Below, piece by piece: positions 191 to 35,455 of a stretch of DNA of 39,371 bases; positions within the stretch are counted from its first letter, which is position 1, and the number at the start of each line of letters is the position of its first letter. The notes beneath the pieces were generated by a model that was not told the DNA's origin, searched no databases, and saw only the letters and a program-made list of their open reading frames with translations. This stretch comes from Magnetococcales bacterium (GTDB taxonomy: Bacteria > Pseudomonadota > Magnetococcia > Magnetococcales > UBA8363). A program made the position numbers and the translations under genes. The DNA lies in NCBI GenBank assembly GCA_002753515.1, contig PEAK01000042.1, positions 1 to 39,371 of the forward strand, given 5' to 3'.

Positions 191-3085
191 TTACCCTCCA
201 AGATCCAGAGATATTTGGGTTCCAATACGACCGACTTTCTGGGATTCTTCGGCAATGCTGTGCCAGGAGGTCATCAACTCATTGTAGGCGAGGGCGTCTT
301 CAGCCCATTTTTTTCTCTCGCACACGGTGTACAGGTGGTAAGCCAACTGGCGAATGGTATCAGCACGTTCCGGCATGCGCACAAGCAGACGACCCGATTC
401 CGACTCCCCCAACGTGTTCAATGCCCGGATTATGTGGTGCAACGCCTCCCAGATCGGCGTTCTGTTGTCTTGTTGCGGATCCCAATGAACTGGATACTCT
501 TTCCACGGGCGCAATCGTACCTGGCCACCACCTGACTCGATGACTCCCGCAGCTTTGACCCCTTCGACGCTCGTACCCTTGGCACGGGAAAGGGTATCCG
601 CTTCACCAAACGGACCAGCCTTCCACCCATAGTGATCAAACCAGGTTGAACAAAAAAGAGTGTCGCTGTCAAAACTACCCGAATCCGGGGTCAGAAAGTC
701 AGTAATCACCCGGTTGATCATAACCAGGGCATCATGTACTGACATGGGTGTGCCGTCCTGATTCAGTACGGCTGCATATTTGGAGTAAACGCCCATGCCC
801 GGACCAATAGCGGCTTGCGCCAAGTCCACCGGGGCCACTGGAGAATTTCCTTGGGTGCCGCCAAGCATGGTTTCCAGGGAGATCGGGAGGGATTCGCGAA
901 GTTCACGCTGAAACTCACGTCGGGAGATGGGTGAGGCGCTTTTGTCGCGCTTGCGACAGACCAGGACGATTGAGGAAGCCAGGGCGTTTGCCTGATTGCC
1001 GATCACCCGCCCCTGTTTCTCTGTTCTAACAGGCCATGTACCCGTAATCGCAAAACCTGACTGTATCAATGCCTCCAAAAAAGATTCCCAGCCCGTTGAG
1101 GTCGTACCAACCGCATGAGTTTCTGATTGCTTGAAGCCATAATAGATGGTAACCGGAAAACCAGTGTGCGCCTGAACGGCAAGATTGTGGAAAGCCCGAA
1201 ACATTCCATCCATAAAGAATGTCTCGGCTTTCTCCTTCGAGCCATGACGATAGGGTGTTGCTACCAATTCCTCAATTTTGGGTACGGCTAACGTGGAAAA
1301 AAGTGCTGGATAGATTGATTTCAGGGAGCGCCGTAGCCAAATATAAAAAAAATCCGACAAATCTGCATAGCTTATATTATCAAAATAAGGCGGGTCTGAA
1401 GATACAATCTTGCCTTCCGCCTGCTCTTGTATTGCAGCGTCTGCCTGTACAACGACTCCAGCCATACCAGAGCCAAGTGCAGAAAACCCTTTGACCAGCC
1501 TCGCACAAAGATTATGGAAACTTCCCGAAGAAACACTGAAGGGATTGCTTTCCGCATAATCCCAGACCATGGGAATGGCCTGTCTGGCGAAAACACTGCG
1601 CATTTGCGCATTTACTGAGTTCCAGCCACACACCGATGAAGAATGATTGGCAACTTGGTTGATAAGCAACCCCAAATACACCGCAACCGCATCCCCATAG
1701 GCCCTGGCCCCGATACCACCAGCATCCAACCCCAGATCATCATCGGCCATGCCAGCGGCTTTGGCATCAGCAATCACCTTTTCCCGTGCCCCCTGCACCA
1801 GATCGGAAAAGGTGGTCAACGCCACCAATTGGCGCGGAGTGAAGAGATCCCCGAATTGGGTAAGGCCGTAGTTTGGTGTCTTGAAGTCACGGGGATTATT
1901 CGGCAACGCCATTTCTGGTGACCACCCGGGTCGGACACTGTTGGCTCGTGCGATCTGTTCCAAAGCAGGAGAAATGAAGACCCTCCCGCGAATACCCTCA
2001 GCGATTATGGCCATGAGTCGCTGCCCCATACGCCCGGCTTTACCCTCGTTTCTAATGTAGTTGTAGTCGATGGGTGATTTGGAAAGCAGACAAATAAAGG
2101 CTGCCCGCTTACCGGCTGTTGTTCCATACTTGGAACACTCCGGGGGCTTCCCTGTTTTCACCACAAACTGATAGGTTTTTCCCACCACAACGGGCTCAAC
2201 ATACGCCTCCTTTCCAACCTTGCTGGAAAGAATGAAGGAAGAGACCAGTGGAACATCGACTTGCGAAAAAGCTGGATTCGGGCTTTTCACGGTACGCGCC
2301 CATAACCAAGCGATAACGGTGAGTTTCTGCCCAACGTACCCCTTGAGATCAGGGCGTTCCCTGGCCATTTCACCGATGATTTCCACTTTGGAATACAGAT
2401 GACCGATGCGTTTAAATGCCTCTTCTCGCATCCAATGACCATAGCGACGCACATCCTCGGCCAACCCGGAAGTTCCAGGCCATGCCGATGTCATCCGTAC
2501 CTGAGTTTCACCCCCCGGGACAGGCCCTGCCGGTTCCCTCCCAACAAACCTGGGGGGAATCTCAATCATCGCCTTGTTGATCAACACCGCCACCGGGTTG
2601 ATGTCAGATGCATATGCTTCCAATCCCAAGCGTTGCGCTTCCAGGGGAATGGCCCCTCCTCCCGCAAAAGGATCGTGAAAAGCAGGCAACTTTTCTGCAT
2701 CAAACCCTGGCTGCCCCTTGTTGAGTTCACAGGTTTCCCGCCACGATTTCCAAATAGCTGCACGGGCTTTATTCAACACCTCCTCATTGTTGGTATTTTC
2801 CCATAACACCAGTTCACGGATGATCTGGAACAGCTCCTCCCGTTCGGCGTCCGCTTGAGCCGTGGTTTTTCCAGAATGCCCCCCCCGATCCCCACCCGGA
2901 TCGTTCACCATCTGCGCAAACAACACCGCCCGTGCCGCTGCCAAGGGCCGCCGCGCCCACCAAAGATGTAATGTAGAAGGATGCCCATGGCGGATGGATT
3001 TCTCACGCACTGTCGCCGCATTGATAGCATCCAATGGCAGTGCAACTTCGATCAATTTTTTGGGAGCCTTAACATTCTGGCTCAT
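191..3085 (-). CDS. DUF1156 adenine-specific DNA methyltransferase (COG1743-like)
   Basis: This is a large predicted adenine-specific DNA methyltransferase of about 964 residues. The N-terminus carries the DUF1156 signature ([13 protein letters not shown], then [15 protein letters not shown]). Next come the SAM-binding [17 protein letters not shown], a central [18 protein letters not shown] block typical of COG1743, and a catalytic [13 protein letters not shown] motif (DPPY type) near residue 600. I chose the MSQN start at 3085 because the family N-terminus follows at once and AGGAGG lies 12 bases upstream; a start at 3118 would add 11 residues. The gene overlaps the end of the AbrB-like gene by 17 bases, so the two are probably translationally coupled. 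Homologues sit in antiphage clusters with DUF499, DUF3780 and helicase genes. Those partners are not visible here, although the region beyond base 1 is unseen. DNA modification is inferred from motifs. Confidence 0.88.
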
Positions 3086-4400: not shown

Positions 4401-5312
4401 ATGATCGTCCCATGTTATAACCTTCTGGCCATAATCGGCGCGACCGCCAGCGGCAAAACCCGCCTTGGCGTCGAACTGGCCCAATTCTTGTCAGGCGAAA
4501 TCATCTCCGCCGACTCCCGCCAAGTTTATCGCGGCCTCGATATCGGTACCGGCAAAGACCTCCACGAATACGGTTCCGTGCCCTACCATCTGGTGGACAT
4601 CGTCGATCCCCAAACCGAATTCAGCGTCTTTGACTTTCAGGGGCACTGTCACCAATCCATCCGTTCCATCACCGAACGGGGCAACCTCCCCTGTCTGGTC
4701 GGCGGCTCAGGGCTCTATCTCGAATCCGTCCTGTTGGGCTACCAGATGGCCAGGGTACCCGAAAATCCAACGTTACGTCTGGAATTGGAACTCCTGGACG
4801 ATCACAGCCTGCAACAACGCCTGGAGTCGCTCAAGCCACGTCTGCACAACTCAACCGATCTGACCACCCGTGCCAGAATGATCCGCGCCATCGAAATCGC
4901 CACGTCAGGATCTCTCATCCCCATTCCGTTGAACCTACAGACGAAAGTCCTGGGCATTCAGTGGCCCAGAACCATCCTGCGGCAACGTATTCAAGATCGA
5001 CTCCAGTACCGTCTGAAAAACGGACTCATCGAAGAAGGGCAACGCCTGCTGGGCCAGGGTATGACACACGATCGCATGGAATCCATGGGTTTGGAATACC
5101 GCTGGGTCTCCCGCTACCTCCGCGAGGAAATCACCATCCAAACACTGCAAACCGAACTCGGACGCGCTATCGCACAATTTGCCAAACGTCAGGAAACTTG
5201 GTTCCGGCGTATGGAACGCCGTGGTATCACCATCACCTGGTTGGAAGGGGGGGACACCCTGACCGAACAAGCCCGAGAAGCTTGCGCTCAAGTCGAGTGG
5301 CTTGTCAGATAA
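4401..5312 (+). CDS. miaA: tRNA dimethylallyltransferase MiaA
   Basis: MiaA transfers a dimethylallyl group to N6 of A37 in tRNAs that read codons starting with U. The P-loop GATASGKT is at residues 13-20, followed by the family motif SADSRQVYRGLDIGTGK and the HLVDIVDP segment. The C-terminal half has MGLEYRWVSRYL and FAKRQETWFRR, which match the end of the family. At 303 residues it is full length. It lies 30 bases after the prepilin gene on the same strand, with no clear terminator between them. Confidence 0.96.
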   Translation: MIVPCYNLLAIIGATASGKTRLGVELAQFLSGEIISADSRQVYRGLDIGTGKDLHEYGSVPYHLVDIVDPQTEFSVFDFQGHCHQSIRSITERGNLPCLVGGSGLYLESVLLGYQMARVPENPTLRLELELLDDHSLQQRLESLKPRLHNSTDLTTRARMIRAIEIATSGSLIPIPLNLQTKVLGIQWPRTILRQRIQDRLQYRLKNGLIEEGQRLLGQGMTHDRMESMGLEYRWVSRYLREEITIQTLQTELGRAIAQFAKRQETWFRRMERRGITITWLEGGDTLTEQAREACAQVEWLVR

Positions 5313-5416
5313 TTCCCTCAAAACCACCTATTGGATTACTTCGATATCACCCCAAAGAAGGATCACGCAAAAATCAGTTATTCAATTGTTTCATGGCAAT
5401 AATGGGTAATACTTCA

Positions 5417-5422
5417 TACAAT
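5417..5422 (+). promoter_or_regulatory. Possible -10 box of the rSAM/ANL/KaiC/SIR2 operon
   Basis: TACAAT lies 45 bases before the preferred start of the first operon gene, in an AT-rich gap after miaA. A -35 box at the right distance (TGGCAA, 5394-5399) is weak. This is the only good candidate in the 5313-5466 gap. Confidence 0.25.
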
Positions 5423-5466
5423 GTGCCTCCATGTGTGTTCAGGTTAGGAAATTTCTCAGCGAAGTG

Positions 5467-6645
5467 ATGCGGCGAATTCGGAAAACAGAGATCGACTGCT
5501 CATCCACAGCCTTGGATTTGGCTCGGGCCGATCTCTACTTCGAGGAAATACGTCTGCACCACCCTGACGATGCGGTCAGGGGATCTTACGTGATGCCCCT
5601 GGTCACACTACGTACCAAAGCTTGTAGCTGGTCGTCTGTTTCTGGATGCACGATGTGCGGCTACCATTTGGGTTCTGCCAAGCAACAGGTTGTAGGTGTA
5701 GACGACCTTCTGACCCAAACTCGCTGGGTCATTCGACGACTTGACCCTAACATTTACCATACCCTGGTGTTCACTTCCAACGGTAGTTTTCTCGATCCCG
5801 ACGAAGTGCCAGACACAGTACGCCCTGAACTTATGAAAATGCTGTATGAGGCCGGTTTCCGTTTCGTAGTGATGGAATCTCGTCCTGGTTTTATTACTCC
5901 TGCCCGGCTGGACGCTCTCATCACAACGGTTCCGTATGGAATGCGGAAGACTGGAAAAATACCCTTTTCCATCTCCTTCGGCATCGAAAGCGCTTCGGAT
6001 TTCATTCTTACCACATGCATCAACAAGGGAGTATGCGTTTCTGAACTAGCCGACGGTGCCGCTATAATTCAAGAACGAAGTATTACCATTGACGGATATG
6101 TATTACTCGGAAAACCATTTCTCACTGCCCAGGAAGATTGCGATGATGCCCTGAGAACCATCCGTTGGGCAAGTGAATTGGGAGCTAACTACCTGTTTGT
6201 CATGGTAACCAACCGAGTAGCCGGAAGCCTCGCCAATCATCTGATCGCCCGCAGGCATCATTCGTTACCGAGCCTGTGGCGGGCGGTTCGCCTGCTGGAA
6301 ATGCTGCCCGCATCTTTGCGGCGTCTGGTGCAGATCAAGGGAATCAGCCATGCCCCCTATCCACCTATAGAATACGCCACAACCTGTCAAGGCTGTCACG
6401 ATCGAATTGTTCGAGGACTCAACTTTTGGAACCAGACCGGCGATTTCGCCCATATTCAGGAATTACCATTCTGCGCCTGTCGGGAACGGTTTGAAACGGA
6501 CGAATGGGCCAATCGTCCTGATCTCTCTCTGCCATGCCGTATCCACAAACACTATCTTCGCCTGGCTTCCGATCTTGATCTCAATCCCAGTATTGTGCCA
6601 CCCCTGACTATGTTGGACATGATGTGGCAGAAGGGACAACCTTGA
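5467..6645 (+). CDS. Radical SAM protein resembling RaSEA (TIGR01210-like), copy A
   Basis: A radical-SAM enzyme of 392 residues from this start (404 if translation begins at 5431; neither start has a good ribosome-binding site). The cluster motif is C-x7-C-x2-C, ACSWSSVSGCTMCGYH, rather than the classical Cx3Cx2C. A long spacing followed by CTMCGY is, as I recall, typical of the archaeosine radical-SAM lyase RaSEA and its relatives. Downstream are a TNGSFLDPDEVP segment, VMESRPGFI and SFGIESASDFI, normal parts of the rSAM barrel. The C-terminus has further cysteines (CQGCH, FCAC, LPC) that may bind zinc or an auxiliary cluster. It is first in a seven-gene operon and overlaps the next gene, its paralogue. 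Substrate is unknown; no archaeosine pathway genes are visible, so RaSEA activity itself is not claimed. Confidence 0.8.
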   Translation: MRRIRKTEIDCSSTALDLARADLYFEEIRLHHPDDAVRGSYVMPLVTLRTKACSWSSVSGCTMCGYHLGSAKQQVVGVDDLLTQTRWVIRRLDPNIYHTLVFTSNGSFLDPDEVPDTVRPELMKMLYEAGFRFVVMESRPGFITPARLDALITTVPYGMRKTGKIPFSISFGIESASDFILTTCINKGVCVSELADGAAIIQERSITIDGYVLLGKPFLTAQEDCDDALRTIRWASELGANYLFVMVTNRVAGSLANHLIARRHHSLPSLWRAVRLLEMLPASLRRLVQIKGISHAPYPPIEYATTCQGCHDRIVRGLNFWNQTGDFAHIQELPFCACRERFETDEWANRPDLSLPCRIHKHYLRLASDLDLNPSIVPPLTMLDMMWQKGQP

Positions 6646-8027
6646 GTTTTCCATCAGATACCAGTGACTATCTAGCCCATGATGGGTTAAAGAAGCGGAT
6701 TCTGTCGATCTCCAGACGGCTACGCCAAGCCCAAACACACCTCCATAAAACGCTACACACCGATCTGACCGCTTTCGCGCAAGCCGATATCTACTTTGAA
6801 CCAGGGCCGGACGGGGATTACCCTATCGTTGCGTTACGTAGTGTTCCTTGCTCCTATTATTTGCATGGCTACTGCACCCCATGCGCCTATTCGGCCCGTC
6901 CAAGACCCTCCTCTGATATACGTCAAGACCCCTACCCAGCGCTCCTTAAGCAGGTGGATAACCTGCTGTCCCGCTTTGATGAACTGTTTTTGCATCGCAC
7001 AAATGGCCAATTGCCCGGGTATCGTATCCGTCAGCGAAAACATGACCGTATCTACATGCTGCAATTGGCTGGCGAAAGCAGTTTTTTCAGCGACCGGGAA
7101 ATTCCCCCTGACTATCGTCGAAATATTCTTGATCGTTTTTTGCAATTTAGCAACAAACACCATGTGGACTGGCATTTGATGTTGGAGGTACGACCAGAAG
7201 ACCTGGTCAAAGCTTCAGAAAGTGGCGAGCTTGATCGTTTGCAGCCCCTACTTGAAACCCTTAATGTAGTGGTCAACATGGGTTTTGAACACGATGACCA
7301 GTTTCTGCGACAAGTGATTTTCGCTAAAAATCTTGATCAGAACGTTTTCTTAAAGGCGATATCCATTGCCAAACATCATGGCTTGGACCCGGGAGTGTTC
7401 CTCTTCGCAGGCGCTTTCATTTTGACTCCCCGTGAAGTCCTGCAACAGATGGCGCACGGCTTGGCATTCCTGGAAACTCAAGGGGTGTTTGTCAACGTCA
7501 TGCTTCCCAACCTCCAGGCATTTACGTTACCTGATTTGCTTTACCACGCCGACCTTTACAACCTGCCAGAACCTACCTGGCTGTTGGGACTGATGCCCCT
7601 TCTGTTGGACTATGCCCCCAAACGGTCGGATGGTGTCACTCCGGGGCACTGGTTCGTAGGGGGTGTGGTTGCCGAACCAGCCCCCGATGGAACCATAGTT
7701 AACCATCCACGCCTGAAATGCCCCCAATCCCTCGCCAATCAGCTTCTCAAACTCACTCATGACCTTAGGCTTGGTGGGGGGCAAGAAATGTTCAAGAAAG
7801 CCTGCAAAAAATTATATCAAACAGCGAAAACTGCATCGATGGCTTGTCATTGCCCAGTGTTTAATGATATATTAAGGGGTTGTAGTCCCTTGGAGGGGGA
7901 TTTACCCGTCCCAACATGGCCACAACGCACCCACCAAGCTCTGGCCATCGCTGAAACACAGTTGGACGCTTACCTCACCAAAAAGAGTGCAGAGGCTCTT
8001 AAAGTCCGGCCTCGCAATATCTTATAA
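6624..8027 (+). CDS. Radical SAM protein resembling RaSEA, copy B
   Basis: A 467-residue paralogue of the preceding gene. The cluster motif VPCSYYLHGYCTPCAY keeps the same C-x7-C-x2-C spacing, and the upstream context (FAQADIYFEP, then IVALRSVPC) aligns with ARADLYFEE and PLVTLRTKAC of copy A. Later parts are more diverged (LQLAGESSFF, WHLMLEVRPEDL, VVNMGFEHDDQFLR). It ends with ACHCPVFNDILRGC, again with spare cysteines. The frame has no early ATG: it may start at GTG 6624, or at TTG 6642, which overlaps the stop of copy A and has GAAGGG six bases upstream. Either choice implies translational coupling. Two paralogues side by side suggest two successive radical steps or a heterodimer; which is not known. 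Confidence 0.77.
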   Translation: MAEGTTLSFPSDTSDYLAHDGLKKRILSISRRLRQAQTHLHKTLHTDLTAFAQADIYFEPGPDGDYPIVALRSVPCSYYLHGYCTPCAYSARPRPSSDIRQDPYPALLKQVDNLLSRFDELFLHRTNGQLPGYRIRQRKHDRIYMLQLAGESSFFSDREIPPDYRRNILDRFLQFSNKHHVDWHLMLEVRPEDLVKASESGELDRLQPLLETLNVVVNMGFEHDDQFLRQVIFAKNLDQNVFLKAISIAKHHGLDPGVFLFAGAFILTPREVLQQMAHGLAFLETQGVFVNVMLPNLQAFTLPDLLYHADLYNLPEPTWLLGLMPLLLDYAPKRSDGVTPGHWFVGGVVAEPAPDGTIVNHPRLKCPQSLANQLLKLTHDLRLGGGQEMFKKACKKLYQTAKTASMACHCPVFNDILRGCSPLEGDLPVPTWPQRTHQALAIAETQLDAYLTKKSAEALKVRPRNIL

Positions 8028-8037
8028 GGATGATAAC

Positions 8038-9273
8038 ATGGTTGCAACAAAAACCAAAATCTTACCAGCAACGCGATGCCATGGTCCTTCCTGGGCTGGA
8101 GAAGTTGTGGCCCGCATGGAAGTCAACAAGCGTTCTGTTCGTGACACACCACGGGTCGACTGCTGGGCCGACCTGCCGGTGATGACACACCTTCCACTTC
8201 TACCACGCTGGCTTGGGGAACGGACGCCATTCAAACGAATTTACCTGAGTTCAGGCACCTCCGGCACACCAAAACGGATCCCTTTCTCTGACCGTGACTG
8301 GCGCGAAATGGTGGCCTGTCGCGCAGATTGCTTAACGGCGCTCGGAATCGATCATACAAGCCGGGCAGTCGTTGTCACCCCCTTTTCCCCCTGGTTTTCA
8401 GGGGATAATCTGAGTGAAGCATTGACAACTATCGGAGCTTCCGTTTTCGCCGCCGGGGCCTATCGACCCCACCTTTCAAGTGCCCTTGCGATCCTGCACA
8501 AACTGGCATCCGATACGCTGATTACCCTGCCCAGCACCGCCATGACCCTGCTCGGAATCCTGGAGGAAGGCCGTGTTATGGGAGTATTGCCCCCACGGAG
8601 TCCACTGCGGCGGGTGATTCTTGTGGGCGAACAGGCGAGTGAAAAACTTCGTGCAACTCTGGAAAATCAATGGGGCGTCACCACCCACATGCTGTTCGCC
8701 GCCAGCGAGGCGGTGATCGGTCATGAAGATCCTGTCCACCCCGGTAGTTATCGATGGAATCGGCAATGGGTCCATCTTGAAGTAAAGCGGGATGATGGGA
8801 GTATCCACGAAAGCGGCGAAGGGGAACTCCTGGTGTCGCGGCGCTGGAGCGAAGCCTCTCCGGTAGTACGTTATGCCTTGGGAGACCGGGTCGTCATGCG
8901 CCCCGCCACAACAGACCGCCCAGAACACTTCATTCATCTTTACCGACAAGGCCAAGCGTGTCAACTTCCCGCCGGAGTAACCATCGATTTCCCGCTGCTC
9001 GAACGCTTCTTGGAAAGTTTGCGCCCTTCGACCACGACCCTTGGTGTTCAGGCCATTCACCATGAGGGAGGTTATACAAACCTTGTGTTGACTGTAAACC
9101 ATATACCAGACGGGCACTCTCTGGACAGTTTGGCAGAACATTTTACTGGTTTTTCCATGGATATTGCCGATGTTATCGCATCGGGCTTTGTCACCCTGCG
9201 TATAACTCTCGATCCTACCCTGGGAACAGCCGGAGGCAAGGCCATCCAGGTTCGTGAAACCGGCTCCTGGTAG
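8038..9273 (+). CDS. Divergent PaaK/LuxE-like adenylate-forming enzyme 1
   Basis: A member of the ANL adenylate-forming superfamily of about 411 residues. The nucleotide-binding loop is YLSSGTSGTPKRIPFS near residue 80. The second core motif, normally YGxTE, is changed to AASEAVIG, and the RYALGDRV motif replaces the usual (Y/R)xTGD. The chosen ATG at 8038 has AAGGA upstream and follows the previous stop by ten bases. Such enzymes activate a carboxylic acid as its adenylate and pass it to CoA, a carrier or a protein. The changed second motif may mean altered specificity or a regulatory pseudoenzyme working with the next gene. The protein seems to lack the zinc-like CPCG segment seen in the next gene. 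Confidence 0.78.
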   Translation: MVATKTKILPATRCHGPSWAGEVVARMEVNKRSVRDTPRVDCWADLPVMTHLPLLPRWLGERTPFKRIYLSSGTSGTPKRIPFSDRDWREMVACRADCLTALGIDHTSRAVVVTPFSPWFSGDNLSEALTTIGASVFAAGAYRPHLSSALAILHKLASDTLITLPSTAMTLLGILEEGRVMGVLPPRSPLRRVILVGEQASEKLRATLENQWGVTTHMLFAASEAVIGHEDPVHPGSYRWNRQWVHLEVKRDDGSIHESGEGELLVSRRWSEASPVVRYALGDRVVMRPATTDRPEHFIHLYRQGQACQLPAGVTIDFPLLERFLESLRPSTTTLGVQAIHHEGGYTNLVLTVNHIPDGHSLDSLAEHFTGFSMDIADVIASGFVTLRITLDPTLGTAGGKAIQVRETGSW

Positions 9274-9283
9274 TGAAACCGTC

Positions 9284-10459
9284 ATGCTAACCTTTGCGGA
9301 GCTTCTCGAAGCAGCCCGATGCTCTCCCTTGTACGACAGATGGGTCATTCAGGAGCCACTGCTCCCGGAACAACCCGGGGATCCCCTCTGGCAAACTTAT
9401 CCCACCCTCAATACAGACCAACTGACCCGCTTTCTGTCAGGACATGGCTACCCCACCCCAGACGGCGCTCGGCTCTTTCTTTCCAGTGGCACCCAGGGCA
9501 AACCAAAAATGATGCCCTTCACAGAATCGGACCTGGAACGGATAGCGGACCTGTGCGGTCGTTTTTCGGTTCTGGAAGGGATCAATGCCCAGTCCCGTAG
9601 CATGGTATTATTGCCAATGGCAAGTTGGACGGTGGGACGGATTACCATGGATGGGCATTGTAAGGCTGGAGCCCAGGTTCATGGCATCGATCTTCATGGC
9701 GGCGTAACTGCCTGGCAACAGGCGTGTGATGCCATCCGGCCCACGGTCATATCCAGCACGCCCAGTGTGTTGGCAGCCTGGGCACCGCATTACAACGGCC
9801 CACCCATGACGCTTCTGGAAACCACTGGAGAACCACTACTGGAGTCCGAACGTCGGCTCATCGAAGCCCGTTTCGGTGCTTTTGTCCATGACGCCTACGG
9901 TCTCACCGAGTGCGTTGTAGGGGTCGAGTGTGCCATGCGTCAGGGATTCCACTACTGGCCGGACAGCGTGTATGTGGAAATCCTCGATCCCGTGAAAAAC
10001 ACTCCAGTGCCGGTGGGAACGATGGGAGAAATCGTTCTGACCAGCTTTCAGCGAGACAGCCTGCCCATTTTACGCTATCGCAGTGGCGATTTGGGTTGGC
10101 TGGTGCAAACGCCCTGCCCCTGTGGGCGTCAGGAACCTCTGCTACACCTTTACGGACGCAAGGCCCCTGCTCTGGCTCTGCCACGGGGTGTAAGTCTGGA
10201 TCGCGGTTTGCTGGAGTGGGCACTACTGGCCTGGGGATATGATCAGCCCCAGGTCATTTGGAAAGGTACCCCGGGAAGTCCTGCCACACCCTTTGTGATC
10301 GATCATTTCCAACCTACGCTGGAGATCACCTGGAATTCAATAACCAACGAAAAAGATGATCCGCTACTCCGCAGACAAATTTTTGACCAATTTCCAGAAT
10401 TGGCTGAATTGGTTCATGAACATGCCCTGAACCTGGTTCTTTCCCTGCGAATGCGTTGA
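9284..10459 (+). CDS. PaaK-like adenylate-forming ligase 2
   Basis: A 391-residue ANL enzyme close to phenylacetate-CoA ligase PaaK. The motifs are, in order, FLSSGTQGKPKMMPF (phosphate loop, with Gln in place of Ser), DAYGLTECVVG (YGxTE), GTMGEIVLT, LRYRSGDLGWL and CPCGRQEPLLHLYGRK; the last is a PaaK-family hallmark just before the hinge. I chose the ATG at 9284, ten bases after the previous stop; a GTG at 9254 would overlap the previous gene. It probably activates an aryl or acyl carboxylate. No thiolation domain or acyl carrier is encoded nearby, so the acceptor is unknown. A good ribosome-binding site leads on to the next gene 17 bases later, which ties the biosynthetic half of the operon to the KaiC/SIR2 half. 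Confidence 0.85.
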   Translation: MLTFAELLEAARCSPLYDRWVIQEPLLPEQPGDPLWQTYPTLNTDQLTRFLSGHGYPTPDGARLFLSSGTQGKPKMMPFTESDLERIADLCGRFSVLEGINAQSRSMVLLPMASWTVGRITMDGHCKAGAQVHGIDLHGGVTAWQQACDAIRPTVISSTPSVLAAWAPHYNGPPMTLLETTGEPLLESERRLIEARFGAFVHDAYGLTECVVGVECAMRQGFHYWPDSVYVEILDPVKNTPVPVGTMGEIVLTSFQRDSLPILRYRSGDLGWLVQTPCPCGRQEPLLHLYGRKAPALALPRGVSLDRGLLEWALLAWGYDQPQVIWKGTPGSPATPFVIDHFQPTLEITWNSITNEKDDPLLRRQIFDQFPELAELVHEHALNLVLSLRMR

Positions 10460-10476
10460 TCATATGAGGAAATGAT

Positions 10477-11535
10477 ATGAGTGATTACAAAAAAGAATAT
10501 ATTAATTGGCATCTTTGGTGGGGTGGAGCATGGGAAAAAAACCATCAGAAGACTCAGCAACAGGACAATCAACCATCAGTTCCCCTGTTCCCATCCTACT
10601 ATTCATACCTTCTGAAATTGGCACCTGGAGTGGGGCTGGTAGACATCTATCCCTGGTTGGCAGAGCTGATGTTTTTCTCCATTGCCGTGGATGGTGATGA
10701 CATTTTGAATGATAAAATAAATATGGCCCCGATCAATATGGTTTCCATCTTCGTGGATGACAACAGAGACAACGTGGCTTATTCCCGTCTCAATTCAGAA
10801 CTCCGGAAAGAATTGGAGCCGATCAACGAATTATTCAAACTGAAACATCTATTATCCTGCTTTACAAACAACAAACCAAGACTATTCATAGTGGACACCT
10901 TTGGTCAATTCAAGGATATTCAACAGGATTCAAATGTACTGACCCAGAAGAATGGAAATGTCTACGCAACCAGTCGTCTGGTAGGGGCAGGAAATCCCAT
11001 GCAGATGATGCGTCGTTTTACCGTCATCGGTGAATTACCCTTGAAGAAGGAAAGCCGACAAAATGTATTTGCAGGGAATGATCTTGGAAATCTTAATTGT
11101 TTCGTGATCAATTCCATCAGCAATCTTTACCGATCCATGGGGGTACGGGATGCCATGTTGCTGGTGCGGGCAATGATGGAACAAGGTGTATGGAAATCCA
11201 CGGGAGAAAAGGAAAAAACGGATACCAAAAAAGAACGTCTGATCGACAACAAAGGCATACTCTTCGCCATATTGCATGAACAAGTGTTCCCCGAAGCGGA
11301 CACCATGTATATCGAAACGTTCTTCGACGGCGTGATCGGCTTTAAGAAAACACCAGATTCCTCTCAACGAAAGGTCTCTTTCTGTTTTGAACGGTTTCCA
11401 CCTCCATTGCCGGGGCAAGACGCCCAGGATAGGCAGTTTCAACCGGATTACTCGGCTTTCTGGACCTATGGGGTCAACGAGGATGGACAGTTGATCATTG
11501 ATGAGGTTCCCAAAAATGAATCAAAAAGCTCCTAA
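10477..11535 (+). CDS. Degenerate KaiC/RecA-fold protein without P-loop
   Basis: A 352-residue protein with no Walker A motif. Its second half follows the layout of a KaiC domain: LNCFVINSISNLYRSMGVRDAM sits where Walker B and the following helix lie (the acidic residue is Asn), then ILFAILHEQVF, an ETFFDGVIGFKK strand pair equivalent to the E..ADGVI element, KVSFCFERFP in place of the K-RG-strand, and a final YGVNEDGQLIID. An earlier LFIVDTFGQF could also be a Walker-B-like strand. I infer an inactive partner of the intact KaiC-like ATPase that follows, whose start overlaps its end by 20 bases. AGGA lies eight bases before the ATG. The family assignment rests on motif order only. Codons are more A/T-rich than in the genes upstream. 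Confidence 0.6.
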   Translation: MSDYKKEYINWHLWWGGAWEKNHQKTQQQDNQPSVPLFPSYYSYLLKLAPGVGLVDIYPWLAELMFFSIAVDGDDILNDKINMAPINMVSIFVDDNRDNVAYSRLNSELRKELEPINELFKLKHLLSCFTNNKPRLFIVDTFGQFKDIQQDSNVLTQKNGNVYATSRLVGAGNPMQMMRRFTVIGELPLKKESRQNVFAGNDLGNLNCFVINSISNLYRSMGVRDAMLLVRAMMEQGVWKSTGEKEKTDTKKERLIDNKGILFAILHEQVFPEADTMYIETFFDGVIGFKKTPDSSQRKVSFCFERFPPPLPGQDAQDRQFQPDYSAFWTYGVNEDGQLIIDEVPKNESKSS

Positions 11536-12763
11536 GAAAACAACACTGAAAATGGTTGGAGGGTTGCCCCAGGGCACCACCGTGGCACTCGTGGGGGATC
11601 CAGGCACCGGTAAAACTACTTTTCTTCTTGAATACTACAAACGAGCCATTCTCAAAAATGGACAAATCGAATTTGAAGAAAATAAACCCCTGAAAAAATT
11701 GGATCATCTCTTGCGCCACAGCAAGCAGAAGCCGGAGTCATCCGACAAGGAGGCTTCCAATAAGGAGGCTTCCAACACTCTACGCTGCTTTGTATCCCTG
11801 GAATCGAGCTTTTCACGCATGGCGGCAACCCATGGCCATTTCTTTCAATCAGAAAATGGACAGGAACATTCAGATAATAAACAGACCAAATCAGATGACA
11901 AACAGACAAAATCAGTTGACAAACAGACAAAATCAGATGACAAACAGCCGCCACCTGATCAATTCATCTTCATTGATGCCACCTCTTTCCTCAGTGGCCG
12001 TGTAGAGGACGAATTGCGCTATCCCCACCTCGCAAGCCAAGCTACAGGTCACAGTAACAATGGCATTAACTTCACCTTGTACAATTTCTCCATGGAGGAA
12101 GAGACCTCCGGCGGTGGCAGTGCCCTACGCTTTCTTGACGAATCCGACAATCATGCCATCCGGCCCCGGGAATTAGGCGAGATCATCGGTTCGTGTACGT
12201 CAGCAGAACACAACCAGCACTGCTCGACTCCCTTCTGCTTAAAACACACATCCCGCGCTTTCATGCTGATGACACGGCCATTACCTGACCCTCGGGTACG
12301 TATCCGTCTGCTCAAAGATTTGTTGGCGGAAATTTTCTCACGTTTCAGGAAATATCAAAAAAGGTTGGTGATATTCGACTCCTTGAGCGCCCTGTTGGAC
12401 AACTTTGTTGGCGAGGGTACAACCTTGGAACCCGCAGGAAGACGCCTGCACATTCTTAACCTGATCCGCTGGTTGGAGGATCTCGGTGTGACCACCCTCT
12501 TTTCCAGCGAAGCGGTACGCGATGACGGACACACCCTGCGACGCCAACCCTTGTTTCTCGGTACACAGGAACGCTATTTAGCGTCTGGCGTTATCCAGTT
12601 GGACTACCACCAATACCGCTCTGGTGACCTGATCCGCTATTTTCGCATTCTGAAAATGCGCGGTGCCAGTCACGACATGCGCCCCCATGCCTACGATATC
12701 AACTCAGAAGGTATTGCCTGGGTGGAACCTCTGTTCGGAGAGCGTGATGAAGAGGGCCTATGA
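11516..12763 (+). CDS. KaiC/RAD55-like RecA-fold ATPase
   Basis: A 415-residue ATPase. Walker A is GDPGTGKT at residues 27-34, preceded by LPQGTTVALV. Walker B is RLVIFDSLSALLD with the acidic residue near 288. Then come TTLFSSEAV and, in the ERYLASGVIQLDYHQ to ILKMRGASHDMRPHAYDI stretch, the KaiC-family pattern K-x-R-G with a downstream His and hydrophobic strand, ending SEGIAWVEP. I chose ATG 11516, with GAGG nine bases upstream, inside the end of the degenerate partner. A charged repetitive insertion lies around residues 75-145. KaiC-like ATPases form hexameric rings used in signalling and regulation. The stop overlaps the SIR2-like start as ATGA, so the KaiC and SIR2 products are probably made in step and may form one complex. 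Confidence 0.85.
   Translation: MNQKAPKKTTLKMVGGLPQGTTVALVGDPGTGKTTFLLEYYKRAILKNGQIEFEENKPLKKLDHLLRHSKQKPESSDKEASNKEASNTLRCFVSLESSFSRMAATHGHFFQSENGQEHSDNKQTKSDDKQTKSVDKQTKSDDKQPPPDQFIFIDATSFLSGRVEDELRYPHLASQATGHSNNGINFTLYNFSMEEETSGGGSALRFLDESDNHAIRPRELGEIIGSCTSAEHNQHCSTPFCLKHTSRAFMLMTRPLPDPRVRIRLLKDLLAEIFSRFRKYQKRLVIFDSLSALLDNFVGEGTTLEPAGRRLHILNLIRWLEDLGVTTLFSSEAVRDDGHTLRRQPLFLGTQERYLASGVIQLDYHQYRSGDLIRYFRILKMRGASHDMRPHAYDINSEGIAWVEPLFGERDEEGL
11747..11775 (+). repeat. 15-bp tandem duplication inside the KaiC-like gene
   Basis: AAGGAGGCTTCCAA occurs at 11747-11760 and again at 11762-11775, a period of 15 bases that encodes two EASNK-like units. It is part of the same low-complexity insertion as the 21-bp array downstream. 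Confidence 0.8.
11873..11947 (+). repeat. 21-bp in-frame tandem repeat (DDKQTKS)
   Basis: Three full 21-bp units (11873, 11894, 11915) and a partial fourth encode the heptad D-[DN]-K-Q-T-K-S. Units two and three differ by one base. The array would form a flexible charged linker between the Walker A part and the rest of the ATPase. Near-identity at the DNA level implies recent expansion and possible length variation between strains. Confidence 0.9.
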
Positions 12764-14079
12764 ACGGCAAAACTATTAATTCCGAATTAAAAAGACATGA
12801 ACTTATAGGCGCACCCGGTACCGTGGTAGTCCTGGGAAGCGGTTGTTCCCTGGGATTGGGAGTTCCCACGTTGACCGGCTTTCTGGACCATGCCTTCGCC
12901 CGATTGATCCAACTGTCAGAGAATAACAACAATGAATTCAAAGATCTGTTCATCCAGTTGAAATGTTATATCGAACGCATTAAAGGATTCGGTGGCTATA
13001 TGCACCTGGACCTGCTTAACATGGAAGAGCTTTATGGTTTGGCTGCCATGCGGGAAGGCATCCTTGATAAGAAAGATAATCCCGAAAAAAAAGATGCCAG
13101 AGCCGTGCTGGCCGCTTTCAAGCGTGTGCTGTTTCTGGTCTATCATAAGGCAGGCATTGAATTTCTTGATATAGATAATCGATTCTCCGGTTTCGACAAA
13201 GAGGGAATCAGAATCAAAAAGATTAAACGGGAAAGCCGTACCGAAGCCCTGGACCACAACGCCCATGTCAACCTTCATACCAACCTGATGGCCTACCTGG
13301 GGCTCGCCTCCTACAAAGATGACGGTGGACGTTTTCCGGCGTTCATCCAGTTCAATTGGGACTTGGCTTTCGACCGGGCATTATGGTTGCTTAAAGTTGG
13401 GAAAGCTCCTGAAGACAACCAGAAACTGTTTCCTTGGACTGATTTCAACACGGTTGAATCTGGTGTAACAAGTAGAGAAAACCATTTCAAGAATGATCCC
13501 CTGGTGATCCGACCACATGGAGGATTGAATTGGATTGAGCTTCCCAACAATAGTAAAGCAGAGGAAGCAGAGGAGATCAAGAAATTGCTACTGCTTGTCG
13601 ACCCAATTTATCTGAATAAAAAGACTTATTGGGATGAAAAGTTGATCTGGGATAAGAAATACATTGAAGAATCCATAAAAAGCACCTTACCTTTCAAAAG
13701 GGGCGAGCAGATGGTATTCGTCCCACCCAGTTGGAAAAAGGATGTCTCACCACTAGCCGGGCAATGGCGGTTGTGTCAGCGCTATCTGGAACGGGCGCGG
13801 CGCATCGTCTTCATCGGTTACTCCATGCCACCAAGCGACATGAATATCCGCTATTTCCTGGCTTTGGCCCTGGCTAATAACAATCTGGTCCCAAAAATTT
13901 ACGTCTGGAATCCAGAAGCAGGCACCCCCGGTAGTGCCGTACGCACCAACTATTTTCAACTTTTCCAGCCTCTGGCCCGCTCAGGGAGACTACTGGGAAT
14001 CCCCTTCAAGTTTGGTCATCCCGGTCTCTTCGACCTGGAACGGGCAATCCAGGTTGCACAACCCATCGAATCCCCATAG
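12760..14079 (+). CDS. SIR2-like NAD-binding protein (putative NADase effector)
   Basis: A 439-residue SIR2-superfamily protein. The NAD-binding glycine motif is VVVLGSGCSLGLGVP (residues 22-36). FIQFNWDLAFD carries the catalytic-site Asn199 and Asp201, and RPHGGLNW carries His253. GYSMPPSDMNIRYFL near residue 350 is the late GYS-x4-D motif common in SIR2-like defence proteins. The deacetylase zinc-ribbon Cys pattern is absent, so NAD hydrolysis or ADP-ribose chemistry is more likely than protein deacetylation. Related domains act as NAD-depleting effectors in Thoeris, DSR and similar antiphage systems. Its ATG overlaps the KaiC-like stop. Its 3' end overlaps the convergent methyltransferase gene by 64 bases. 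Confidence 0.83.
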   Translation: MNGKTINSELKRHELIGAPGTVVVLGSGCSLGLGVPTLTGFLDHAFARLIQLSENNNNEFKDLFIQLKCYIERIKGFGGYMHLDLLNMEELYGLAAMREGILDKKDNPEKKDARAVLAAFKRVLFLVYHKAGIEFLDIDNRFSGFDKEGIRIKKIKRESRTEALDHNAHVNLHTNLMAYLGLASYKDDGGRFPAFIQFNWDLAFDRALWLLKVGKAPEDNQKLFPWTDFNTVESGVTSRENHFKNDPLVIRPHGGLNWIELPNNSKAEEAEEIKKLLLLVDPIYLNKKTYWDEKLIWDKKYIEESIKSTLPFKRGEQMVFVPPSWKKDVSPLAGQWRLCQRYLERARRIVFIGYSMPPSDMNIRYFLALALANNNLVPKIYVWNPEAGTPGSAVRTNYFQLFQPLARSGRLLGIPFKFGHPGLFDLERAIQVAQPIESP

Positions 14080-14768
14080 CCAATCCGCATATCCCGCCAC
14101 CACCAATCCGGCTTTCGGATGACTGGCACCACCATGTGATCCTCCCGCCAATAACAACACCCGTGTGACGGGTGCAAACCATCCACCCGTAGCAAATCAA
14201 TAGCAGGGAAATACCGATTCAGAAGATCACAATGTTCGGCCCGAAACGCATCGCTCTCGTTGGAATAGTAGGTAAAGATGCCGCCAGACTCCAGCAGATC
14301 CCAGGCCAACGGCAAAAATGGATAGTGCCAGCGGTCCCGTTCCGATTCATCCAGCGGACACGTGTCGAACAAAATACCGTCGAATCGGCCTGAAAGCGTA
14401 GGCACAATCTCCTGCCAAAACCCCTCCAAAATGGTCGTCGGATGCTTCTGCCGACCGGCCCATTCCCGGGCCTGAAACGCAATTATCGGATGAGCCTCAA
14501 TGATAACATGGTGCCGACATCCACGCCGTGCGATGGCATCCGCACTCCATCCCAAGCCAAAACCGATCTCCAGCACCGTGCGGTCACCGCTTCCCGCCAC
14601 AATCATCCCGAGCCGCTCCATCAGGGGCTTTTCCCATACTTCAATAACCGGGTAGTCATTGATCCACAACCCCTCCGGCCCTTGCACAACGGGGGATCGT
14701 AACCATTGACAAAATCTTGGGACCGATTCCGGAACAACAATATCGATCTGTCGATCAGAATGCTCCAT
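14016..14768 (-). CDS. GAMT/RMT2-like class I SAM methyltransferase
   Basis: A 250-residue SAM-dependent methyltransferase. Motif I is VLEIGFGLGWSADAI; HHVIIEAHP follows as the adenosine-binding acidic strand; then EGFWQEIVPTLSGRFDGILFDTCPL and LLESGGIFTYYSNE. This run closely resembles guanidinoacetate N-methyltransferase and the yeast arginine methyltransferase Rmt2 (human GAMT has GFGMAIAAS, IIECN, FDGILYDTYPL, GGVLTYCN from memory). AGGGA lies nine bases before the ATG. The substrate is probably a guanidino compound or arginine side chain, but this is inferred. The gene is convergent with the SIR2-like gene and shares 64 bases with its end. Its promoter would lie beside the inverted-repeat element upstream. 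Confidence 0.85.
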   Translation of the reverse strand: MEHSDRQIDIVVPESVPRFCQWLRSPVVQGPEGLWINDYPVIEVWEKPLMERLGMIVAGSGDRTVLEIGFGLGWSADAIARRGCRHHVIIEAHPIIAFQAREWAGRQKHPTTILEGFWQEIVPTLSGRFDGILFDTCPLDESERDRWHYPFLPLAWDLLESGGIFTYYSNESDAFRAEHCDLLNRYFPAIDLLRVDGLHPSHGCCYWREDHMVVPVIRKPDWWWRDMRIGYGDSMGCATWIARSRSKRPG

Positions 14769-14900
14769 GCATGCGTCCCTATTGAATATCTATTTCCACC
14801 TGAATGATGTTGAATCAGTTTGCTACAAGTGAAATAGCTGGTTCACCCCCTCCACGGATAGAATAGCACTAGATTGTTTGATAATCATCCACTTTCAACA

Positions 14901-15052
14901 ACTAAACCGTAGCCATCTTGGAATGTGTAGTTATTGTCATCCCCGCGAAAGCGGGGATCCAGAGGGCATTTCTACTTCCCCTGACTTTCTGGATTCCCGC
15001 TTTCGCGGGAATGACACTGGAAAGCTACGTTTCCCGTGTTGGTTGCGGTTTA
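14901..15052. repeat. Left arm of long inverted repeat around the arsC-like gene
   Basis: This arm matches the reverse complement of 15805-16005 over its length, with scattered mostly transition differences. It contains two inverted REP-like palindromes: CCCCGC-GAAA-GCGGGG at 14941-14956, and the common CTGGATTCCCGC / GCGGGAATGAC unit at 14989-15015. The outer part ATGTGTAGTTATTGTCATCC and the inner part ACGTTTCCCGTGTTGGTTGC are almost identical in both arms. Between this arm and the arsC-like start (15053-15316) I see no gene. Confidence 0.85.
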
Positions 15053-15316
15053 GAAAATTTTGCCAAACCCTGAAAAAATCGTTGCACAAATGAAAGATTC
15101 TTGCAAAAAACAGAATCACTCCTGGCAATACCCAAGGGCTCGCCTTTTGGCCATGGCAACCTGAAAATGTCAAACTGCATAATGATTACTGACCAATTCC
15201 AGCTTCTGTTTCATCACCCTTTTTGATGGTGGCACAGAACTTGTTTTAGGTAGGGTGGCAACCCGGTTGTTGTAAGACCCTGTATTCACCTGATGAACCA
15301 AGATGAGGAGCGCGGG

Positions 15317-15832: not shown

Positions 15833-16005
15833 TTTTCCAGTGTCATTCCCGCGAAAGCGGGAATCCAGAAAGTCAGGGGAGGTAGGAAAGTCCTCTGGAT
15901 CCCCGCTGAAGCCTCGTCATTCCCGCGAAAGCGGGAACCTCGAATGCTTTAATCGGGGGCGAGGATGACAATAACTACACATCCCAAGATAGCTGCGATT
16001 TAACT
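15805..16005. repeat. Right arm of long inverted repeat around the arsC-like gene
   Basis: The reverse complement of this arm matches 14901-15052. It is about 46 bases longer because it contains an extra REP-like palindrome (ATTCCCGCGAAAGCGGGAA near 15920) with flanking sequence. Another palindrome of the same family is at 15844-15868. The arm covers the end of the arsC-like gene and reaches to about 56 bases before pstS, so any pst promoter lies in or next to repeat DNA. I could not find a convincing Pho box here. Confidence 0.85.
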
Positions 16006-35272: not shown

Positions 35273-35340
35273 AGCGGGAACGGCACCCTGCCATAATGCT
35301 GAAATGTGTAGTTCTACTCTGCCACATTGGAACGTACGCT

Positions 35341-35424
35341 CTGGATTCCCGCTTTCGCGGGAATGACTGAGCAGGAAGTCCGATGGAAAAATTAACGGTC
35401 ATTCCCGCAAAAGCGGGAATCCAG
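35341..35424. repeat. Pair of inverted REP-like palindromes
   Basis: The 27-bp unit CTGGATTCCCGC...GGGAATGAC at 35341-35367 is repeated in inverted form at 35398-35424 with one change (CAAAAG for CGAAAG). It is the same family as the palindromes around the arsC-like gene, and the nearby ATGTGTAGTT (about 35303) also matches that element's outer arm. The pair could fold into a large hairpin in the transcript after the nitrilase-like gene. Confidence 0.85.
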
Positions 35425-35455
35425 AACCCGACATTCCCACAAGTGCCTAAAACGA

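Follow-up and report, generated by a model that had tools for sequence, protein, structure and literature searches.

Two neighboring genes of a Magnetococcales bacterium were found to encode the radical SAM proteins rSAM-A and rSAM-B (hereafter A and B), whose homology to the archaeosine lyase RaSEA is near certain from their sequences, and which belong to a rare eight-gene mobile cassette that is strongly supported, though from two genomes. The cassette consists of a seven-gene operon (A, B, AL1, AL2, X1, KaiC-like, and SIR2-like) and an eighth, convergent gene for a GAMT-like protein (Table 1), and it is the main clue to the function of A and B. The window analyzed here, 39,371 nucleotides in length, is a single contig (C104) of a 4.3-Mb genome (G000).

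Table 1. Location of the cassette genes, the inserted segment, and other bacterial RaSEA relatives. Positions are those of the window unless a locus name precedes them.
Feature	Position	Strand	Basis or content
rSAM-A, 404 aa, RaSEA-family radical SAM protein	5431..6645	+	TIGR01210 140 bits, E 8e-41, cut-off 212
rSAM-B, 467 aa, diverged RaSEA-family paralogue	6624..8027	+	TIGR01210 46 bits, E 3.6e-12
AL1, PaaK-like adenylate-forming enzyme	7987..9273	+	NCBIfam and Pfam below cut-off; alignment, motifs
AL2, PaaK-like adenylate-forming enzyme	9254..10459	+	AMP-binding 57 bits; NF045666 137 bits, cut-off 300
X1	10477..11535	+	Pfam, NCBIfam, and PADLOC gave no substantial match; G007 orthologue 65% identical
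KaiC-like ATPase, Walker A GDPGTGKT	11498..12763	+	PF06745 84 bits; PDB KaiC-domain proteins, best E 6e-13
SIR2-like protein, GSGCS, FNWD, and PHGG motifs	12760..14079	+	motifs by inspection; profile matches weak
GAMT-like (guanidinoacetate N-methyltransferase homologue)	14016..14768	-	PDB phmmer E 5.7e-25; G007 orthologue 4.8e-29
Inserted segment, 9,757 bp	5313..15069		blastn of G001:C122 (L142) against the window
Gene row assigned to Dojkabacteria	L066:907-3548		ACP, RaSEA-like radical SAM, KAS-like, and NadE-like genes in a row
L108 gene group	L108:350-15300		two RaSEA-like, third radical SAM, NadE-like, AMP-ligase, KASIII-like, PLP decarboxylase-like, and UvrA-like genes
Rhodobacteraceae gene run (G338)	L041:7237-16566		uninterrupted genes for RaSEA-like radical SAM, NodU-type carbamoyltransferase, possible ATP-grasp, and histidine kinase
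Streptomyces plasmid RaSEA relatives (pFRL3/pFRL5)	L109:11803-12918 and L110:11803-12918		C-x4-C-x2-C, not C-x7-C-x2-C

Cluster motif and homology of the two proteins

The open reading frames of A and B overlap on the plus strand, and their cluster motifs are C65-x7-C73-x2-C76 and C76-x7-C84-x2-C87, respectively. Both motifs are kept in the orthologues of a congener (G007), which agrees with the earlier note that two adjacent radical SAM reading frames with C-x7-C-x2-C lie here. In A this motif is placed in the context C-x-W-x3-SGCTMCGY, as in RaSEA. The start of A is most likely ATG 5431 (404 residues) and not ATG 5467, because homology with the orthologues of G007 and of a third genome (G040) continues upstream of the latter. 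TIGR01210 (RaSEA, archaeosine lyase) was the sole strong HMM match of each protein, though both scores are under its curated equivalog cut-off; the G007 orthologues scored 133 (A) and 59 (B) bits. The likeness to RaSEA proposed in the earlier note is hence a real homology, and neither copy had its best match in another radical SAM family of known chemistry. A shares 24–33% identity with its archaeal relatives and 21% with B (BLASTP E 1e-7 for the pair). The two proteins called paralogous are thus homologous to one another, while their duplication within this lineage was neither shown nor rejected, as a clade of A plus B costs 0.06 log-likelihood units (p-AU 0.415).

The same spacing of cysteines is not unique to RaSEA, and has been reported for the B12-dependent radical SAM methylases PoyB and PoyC (PMC5682303). 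A and B differ from these two in that no B12-binding domain was matched, and the candidate identity as a B12-dependent methylase was rejected on the absence of a cobalamin-binding Pfam domain (no Pfam domain at all for A, and none relevant for B). An AlphaFold2 model of A (pLDDT 90) gave its best fold matches to Elp3 structures (E 7e-8), but the identity to Elp3 is 13–16% and A exhibited no acetyltransferase domain match. The model of B (pLDDT 73), in which approximately residues 330–430 were poorly modeled, also matched radical SAM folds. A sequence search for relatives of A or B with solved structures gave none.

Extra C-terminal cysteines had been ascribed to both copies. A carries the set C319-x2-C322 ... 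C348-x-C350 (CxxC...CxC), and an alignment of A with 35 relatives exhibited invariant cluster cysteines and the presence of C319, C322, C348, and C350 in 33–35 of the 36 proteins. This indicates that the C-terminal cysteines are a feature of the RaSEA family rather than extras of A and B. The description suits A, which has all four, but only half suits B, which holds the second cysteine of each pair (C366 and C394), the first being replaced with R363 and K392. Further cysteines of B at positions 408, 410, and 420 are absent from its G007 orthologue.

Together with these cysteines, A retains E125, E149, E186, and K199. B was said to have diverged in the barrel yet to have kept its three cluster cysteines, and the alignment bore this out; these cysteines and E159, E188, E222, and K235 are retained in both orthologues, those of G000 and G007. 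The losses of B comprise the Met of C-T-M-C, the two C-terminal cysteines, and one otherwise conserved Asn, and B sits on a long branch in a smaller, careful tree. These changes would fit a B that has decayed into a structural or regulatory subunit of an A–B heterodimer and no longer acts as a catalyst, and the neighboring AL1/AL2 and X1/KaiC pairs also look complementary and partly degenerate. The residues kept in both orthologues argue against this role, which we regard as possible but doubtful, and which fits either of the system-level readings described below.

Archaeosine and the bacterial RaSEA relatives

To our knowledge, RaSEA is known for archaeosine only. A, together with B, might be an archaeosine-type enzyme proper, producing a 7-deazaguanine amidine in the tRNA or DNA of this bacterium, and the homology to TIGR01210, the intact cluster and C-terminal cysteines of A, and a bacterial-type Tgt encoded on another contig of the genome are consistent with this. 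However, no ArcS domain (PF17884) was detected in the G000 genome, whereas three archaeal controls were positive, and RaSEA acts in complex with ArcS when it converts a lysine adduct (preQ0-lysine) to an amidine (PMC11298593). The scores below the family cut-off also speak against such an enzyme, and no preQ0 gene was seen in the cassette. Furthermore, K227, P228, N258, H317, and N318 (A numbering) are near-invariant in the archaeal relatives, and A has G, K, M, T, and T at these positions. Of the positions that hardly vary among 29 archaeal relatives, A keeps those of the radical SAM core and has changed many of the rest, and most other bacterial relatives have also lost several of the five named residues. 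Given that A has lost residues specific to the archaea and that ArcS is missing from the genome, neither A nor B is likely to be an archaeosine enzyme, and the probability that they make such an amidine here is estimated to be very low. A role in archaeosine or queuosine formation was therefore rejected. The remark that neither tgt nor arcS is nearby held true within the window, and the expectation of a different substrate, that is, one other than the preQ0-lysine of tRNA, is well supported by the absence of ArcS, the lost signature residues, and the other partner genes.

In summary of the comparison with RaSEA, A and B resemble it in the cluster motif and its sequence context, in the four retained residues, and, for A, in the CxxC...CxC set. 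They differ from it in scoring below the equivalog cut-off, in the missing ArcS partner and archaeal residues, in occurring as two side-by-side copies, and in a cassette that contains ligase, KaiC-like, SIR2-like, and GAMT-like genes. Other bacterial relatives (L066, L108, L041/L107, and those of Streptomyces pFRL3/pFRL5) also compare with A and B; they are of the same family and likewise below the cut-off (115–173 bits), and which lie beside genes of activation, carrier, or other biosynthetic enzymes (Table 1). L108 also has two copies, one of which is without the C-terminal cysteine set; this locus comes from a viral collection and reads as a bacterial biosynthetic cluster. The Streptomyces plasmid relatives adjoin P450, SHMT, glycosyltransferase, carbamoyltransferase, and RfaE2 genes. 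Partner genes in all of these loci are different from those of A and B, and the Streptomyces copies also differ in the cluster spacing. The KAS-like gene of L066 and the decarboxylase and UvrA-like genes of L108 were named by reading their translations and not from a profile. The gene row of L066 is unusual for the reduced Dojkabacteria lineage.

In a quick tree of 70 proteins, the Magnetococcales A sequences were placed with those of Rhodobacteraceae, Dojkabacteria, and L108, outside the archaeal set, with a modest support of 82. In the smaller tree, a split with a support of 95/93 set the archaeal proteins and the Streptomyces pair apart from A, B, and the remaining bacterial sequences, with an unsure deep order among its long branches. 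Grouping of B with the cysteine-poor L108 copy was rejected (p-AU 0.002), suggesting that the cysteines were lost independently. Among named records, Magnetococcales MAGs contain the closest relatives of A, and a scan of approximately 85,000 species, which rests on two short patterns, located close relatives of A only in Magnetococcales.

An inserted eight-gene cassette

The boundaries of the inserted segment were obtained by comparison with another congener (G001), which has an empty site consisting of 49 bp between the matching flanks; its positions 3003 and 3053 correspond to 5312 and 15070 of the window. The miaA gene and a low-molecular-weight phosphatase gene that flank the cassette in the window are neighbors in G001. 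The same eight genes were found in G007 in the same order and orientation, with 60–72% protein identity, but in a different neighborhood, and miaA of G007 is on another contig. In G040, of another family of the same order, only the first part of A is present (L009:98-652), after which the sequence is unrelated and runs into a stop close to where the contig ends, and B and the SIR2-like gene are absent; this A gene is probably a broken copy of the cassette. B, the SIR2-like gene, and a strong GAMT-like match were each detected in 2 of 61 genomes, and X1 in 2 of 249, which are always G000 and G007. The evidence of conservation is thin, because the cassette is known from these two genomes and the broken A gene of the third.

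None of the genes in the inserted segment matched an integrase or transposase, and no direct repeat marks its ends, each of which was examined separately. A was absent from phage records, and on plasmids it was represented only by the distant Streptomyces relatives. B, X1, and the KaiC-like, SIR2-like, and GAMT-like genes were absent from plasmids, as were X1, KaiC-like, and SIR2-like from viral contigs. On these searches, spread of the cassette by phage or plasmid was rejected. REP-like palindromic repeats (GTCATCCCCGCGAAAGCGGGGATCC) were noticed at 14935-15016, 15841-15937, and 35340-35426 of the window, both close to the downstream boundary of the insertion and at other places. The miaA gene that adjoins the cassette (4401-5312) may be one of two in the genus; five of seven congeners have one close (64–88%) and one distant (approximately 31–33%) MiaA match, and the other two have the distant one only.

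Downstream of A and B, the operon genes are separated by overlaps or an 18-bp gap. AL1 keeps the SSGTSGTPK motif and a C-terminal GGKA lysine motif, with YGLTE changed to FAASE, while AL2 keeps SSGTQGKPK, YGLTE, and RYRSGD and is without the C-terminal lysine motif; a profile of the two matched PaaK in the PDB (E 4e-29). By eye, X1 resembles a KaiC-type ATPase core that lacks Walker A. The SIR2-like protein gave a weak PADLOC SIR2 match (E 2.5e-5) and a sub-threshold Pfam SIR2_2 match, and no match to PDB sequences. The GAMT-like protein contains a FDGIL(Y/F)DT motif that aligns with GAMT structures, of which the Asp presumably has a catalytic role. GAMT methylates a guanidino nitrogen. Between G000 and G007, seven of the eight genes exhibited strong purifying selection (dN 0.22–0.32, dS at least 1.8), and B gave a dN of 0.26 with saturated dS. 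Each of the pairs A/B, AL1/AL2, and X1/KaiC appears complementary, in that motifs missing from one member are kept by the other, and putative heterodimers are plausible.

Candidate pathway and rival readings

We tentatively propose that the cassette serves the biosynthesis or modification of a small nitrogen-rich compound of amide, amidine, or guanidine type, other than archaeosine, while holding this reading with low confidence. AL2 and AL1 would adenylate a carboxylate and hand it over to an amine, from which an amino-acid-type adduct would result. A would form the 5'-deoxyadenosyl radical at its C-x7-C-x2-C cluster and cleave a C–N bond of this adduct so that the product retains the nitrogen, by analogy with the action of RaSEA on preQ0-lysine, and B may be a second radical SAM enzyme or a partner subunit. 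The GAMT-like enzyme would then methylate the nitrogen left by A, and the KaiC-like pair and the SIR2-like protein would use or control the product as regulator, sensor, or effector. A pathway of ligase, A, and methyltransferase is suggested, rather than shown, by the amidine chemistry of RaSEA (PMC11298593), the N-methylation by GAMT, and the biosynthetic neighbors of the relatives. The points counted in its favor are the RaSEA homology, the kept residues, the conserved operon, the GAMT homology, the co-occurrence of the genes, the purifying selection, and the neighborhoods of the relatives. On the other hand, we identified neither a substrate nor a carrier protein nor an amidinotransferase, the gene for the GAMT-like protein lies outside the operon and runs toward it, and AL1 and AL2 are each without a motif kept by the other. 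SIR2-like and KaiC-like genes are also atypical of biosynthetic clusters.

A rival reading is an anti-phage or mobile-element conflict system, in which infection would be detected by the KaiC-like ATPases, NAD+ would be depleted by the SIR2-like protein, and the radical SAM, ligase, and methyltransferase genes would make a signal or a protective modification. The cassette is patchily distributed, was inserted cleanly at one site, and occupies a different site in the congener, which, along with the active-site motifs of the SIR2-like protein, is in line with such a system. Matches to the PADLOC entries SIR2, mad8, and mad2 (mad2 E 1.6e-15 for the G007 methyltransferase) point in the same direction, but those in the cassette are either weak or confined to a single domain, PADLOC gave no match for A, B, AL1, AL2, or X1, and the gene set of any known anti-phage system in PADLOC was not found within the cassette. 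A gene for an HmaB-type DNA-adenine methylase with DUF1156 was observed at the contig edge (191-3118 of the window, minus strand; PADLOC 1,616 bits). Its location 2.3 kb from the cassette could be taken as a further sign of defense; however, the empty site of G001 is likewise adjoined by sequence that matches the beginning of this gene, and HmaB is therefore a neighbor and not a part of the cassette. We consider a defense function rather unlikely on this balance. Still bolder is the combination in which the paired RaSEA-like enzymes, the adenylating enzymes, and the GAMT-like protein of a mobile conflict system would produce a signal or toxin of amidine or guanidine type, with the KaiC-like ATPases and a SIR2-like NADase as its readers, constituting a previously undescribed radical SAM small-molecule immunity unrelated to viperin; this joint claim is judged to be improbable.

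A limited literature search on bacterial RaSEA, C-x7-C-x2-C, radical SAM with SIR2, and KaiC with SIR2 defense gave no description of such a cassette. RaSEA relatives occur in several bacterial lineages in biosynthetic-type clusters, twice as pairs within one cluster, and one of these pairs is now tied to the eight-gene mobile cassette. In this cassette, SIR2 and KaiC modules are combined with radical SAM chemistry, and its defined extent and empty-site control make it a bounded unit on which the substrate range of RaSEA-type C–N cleavage can be tested.
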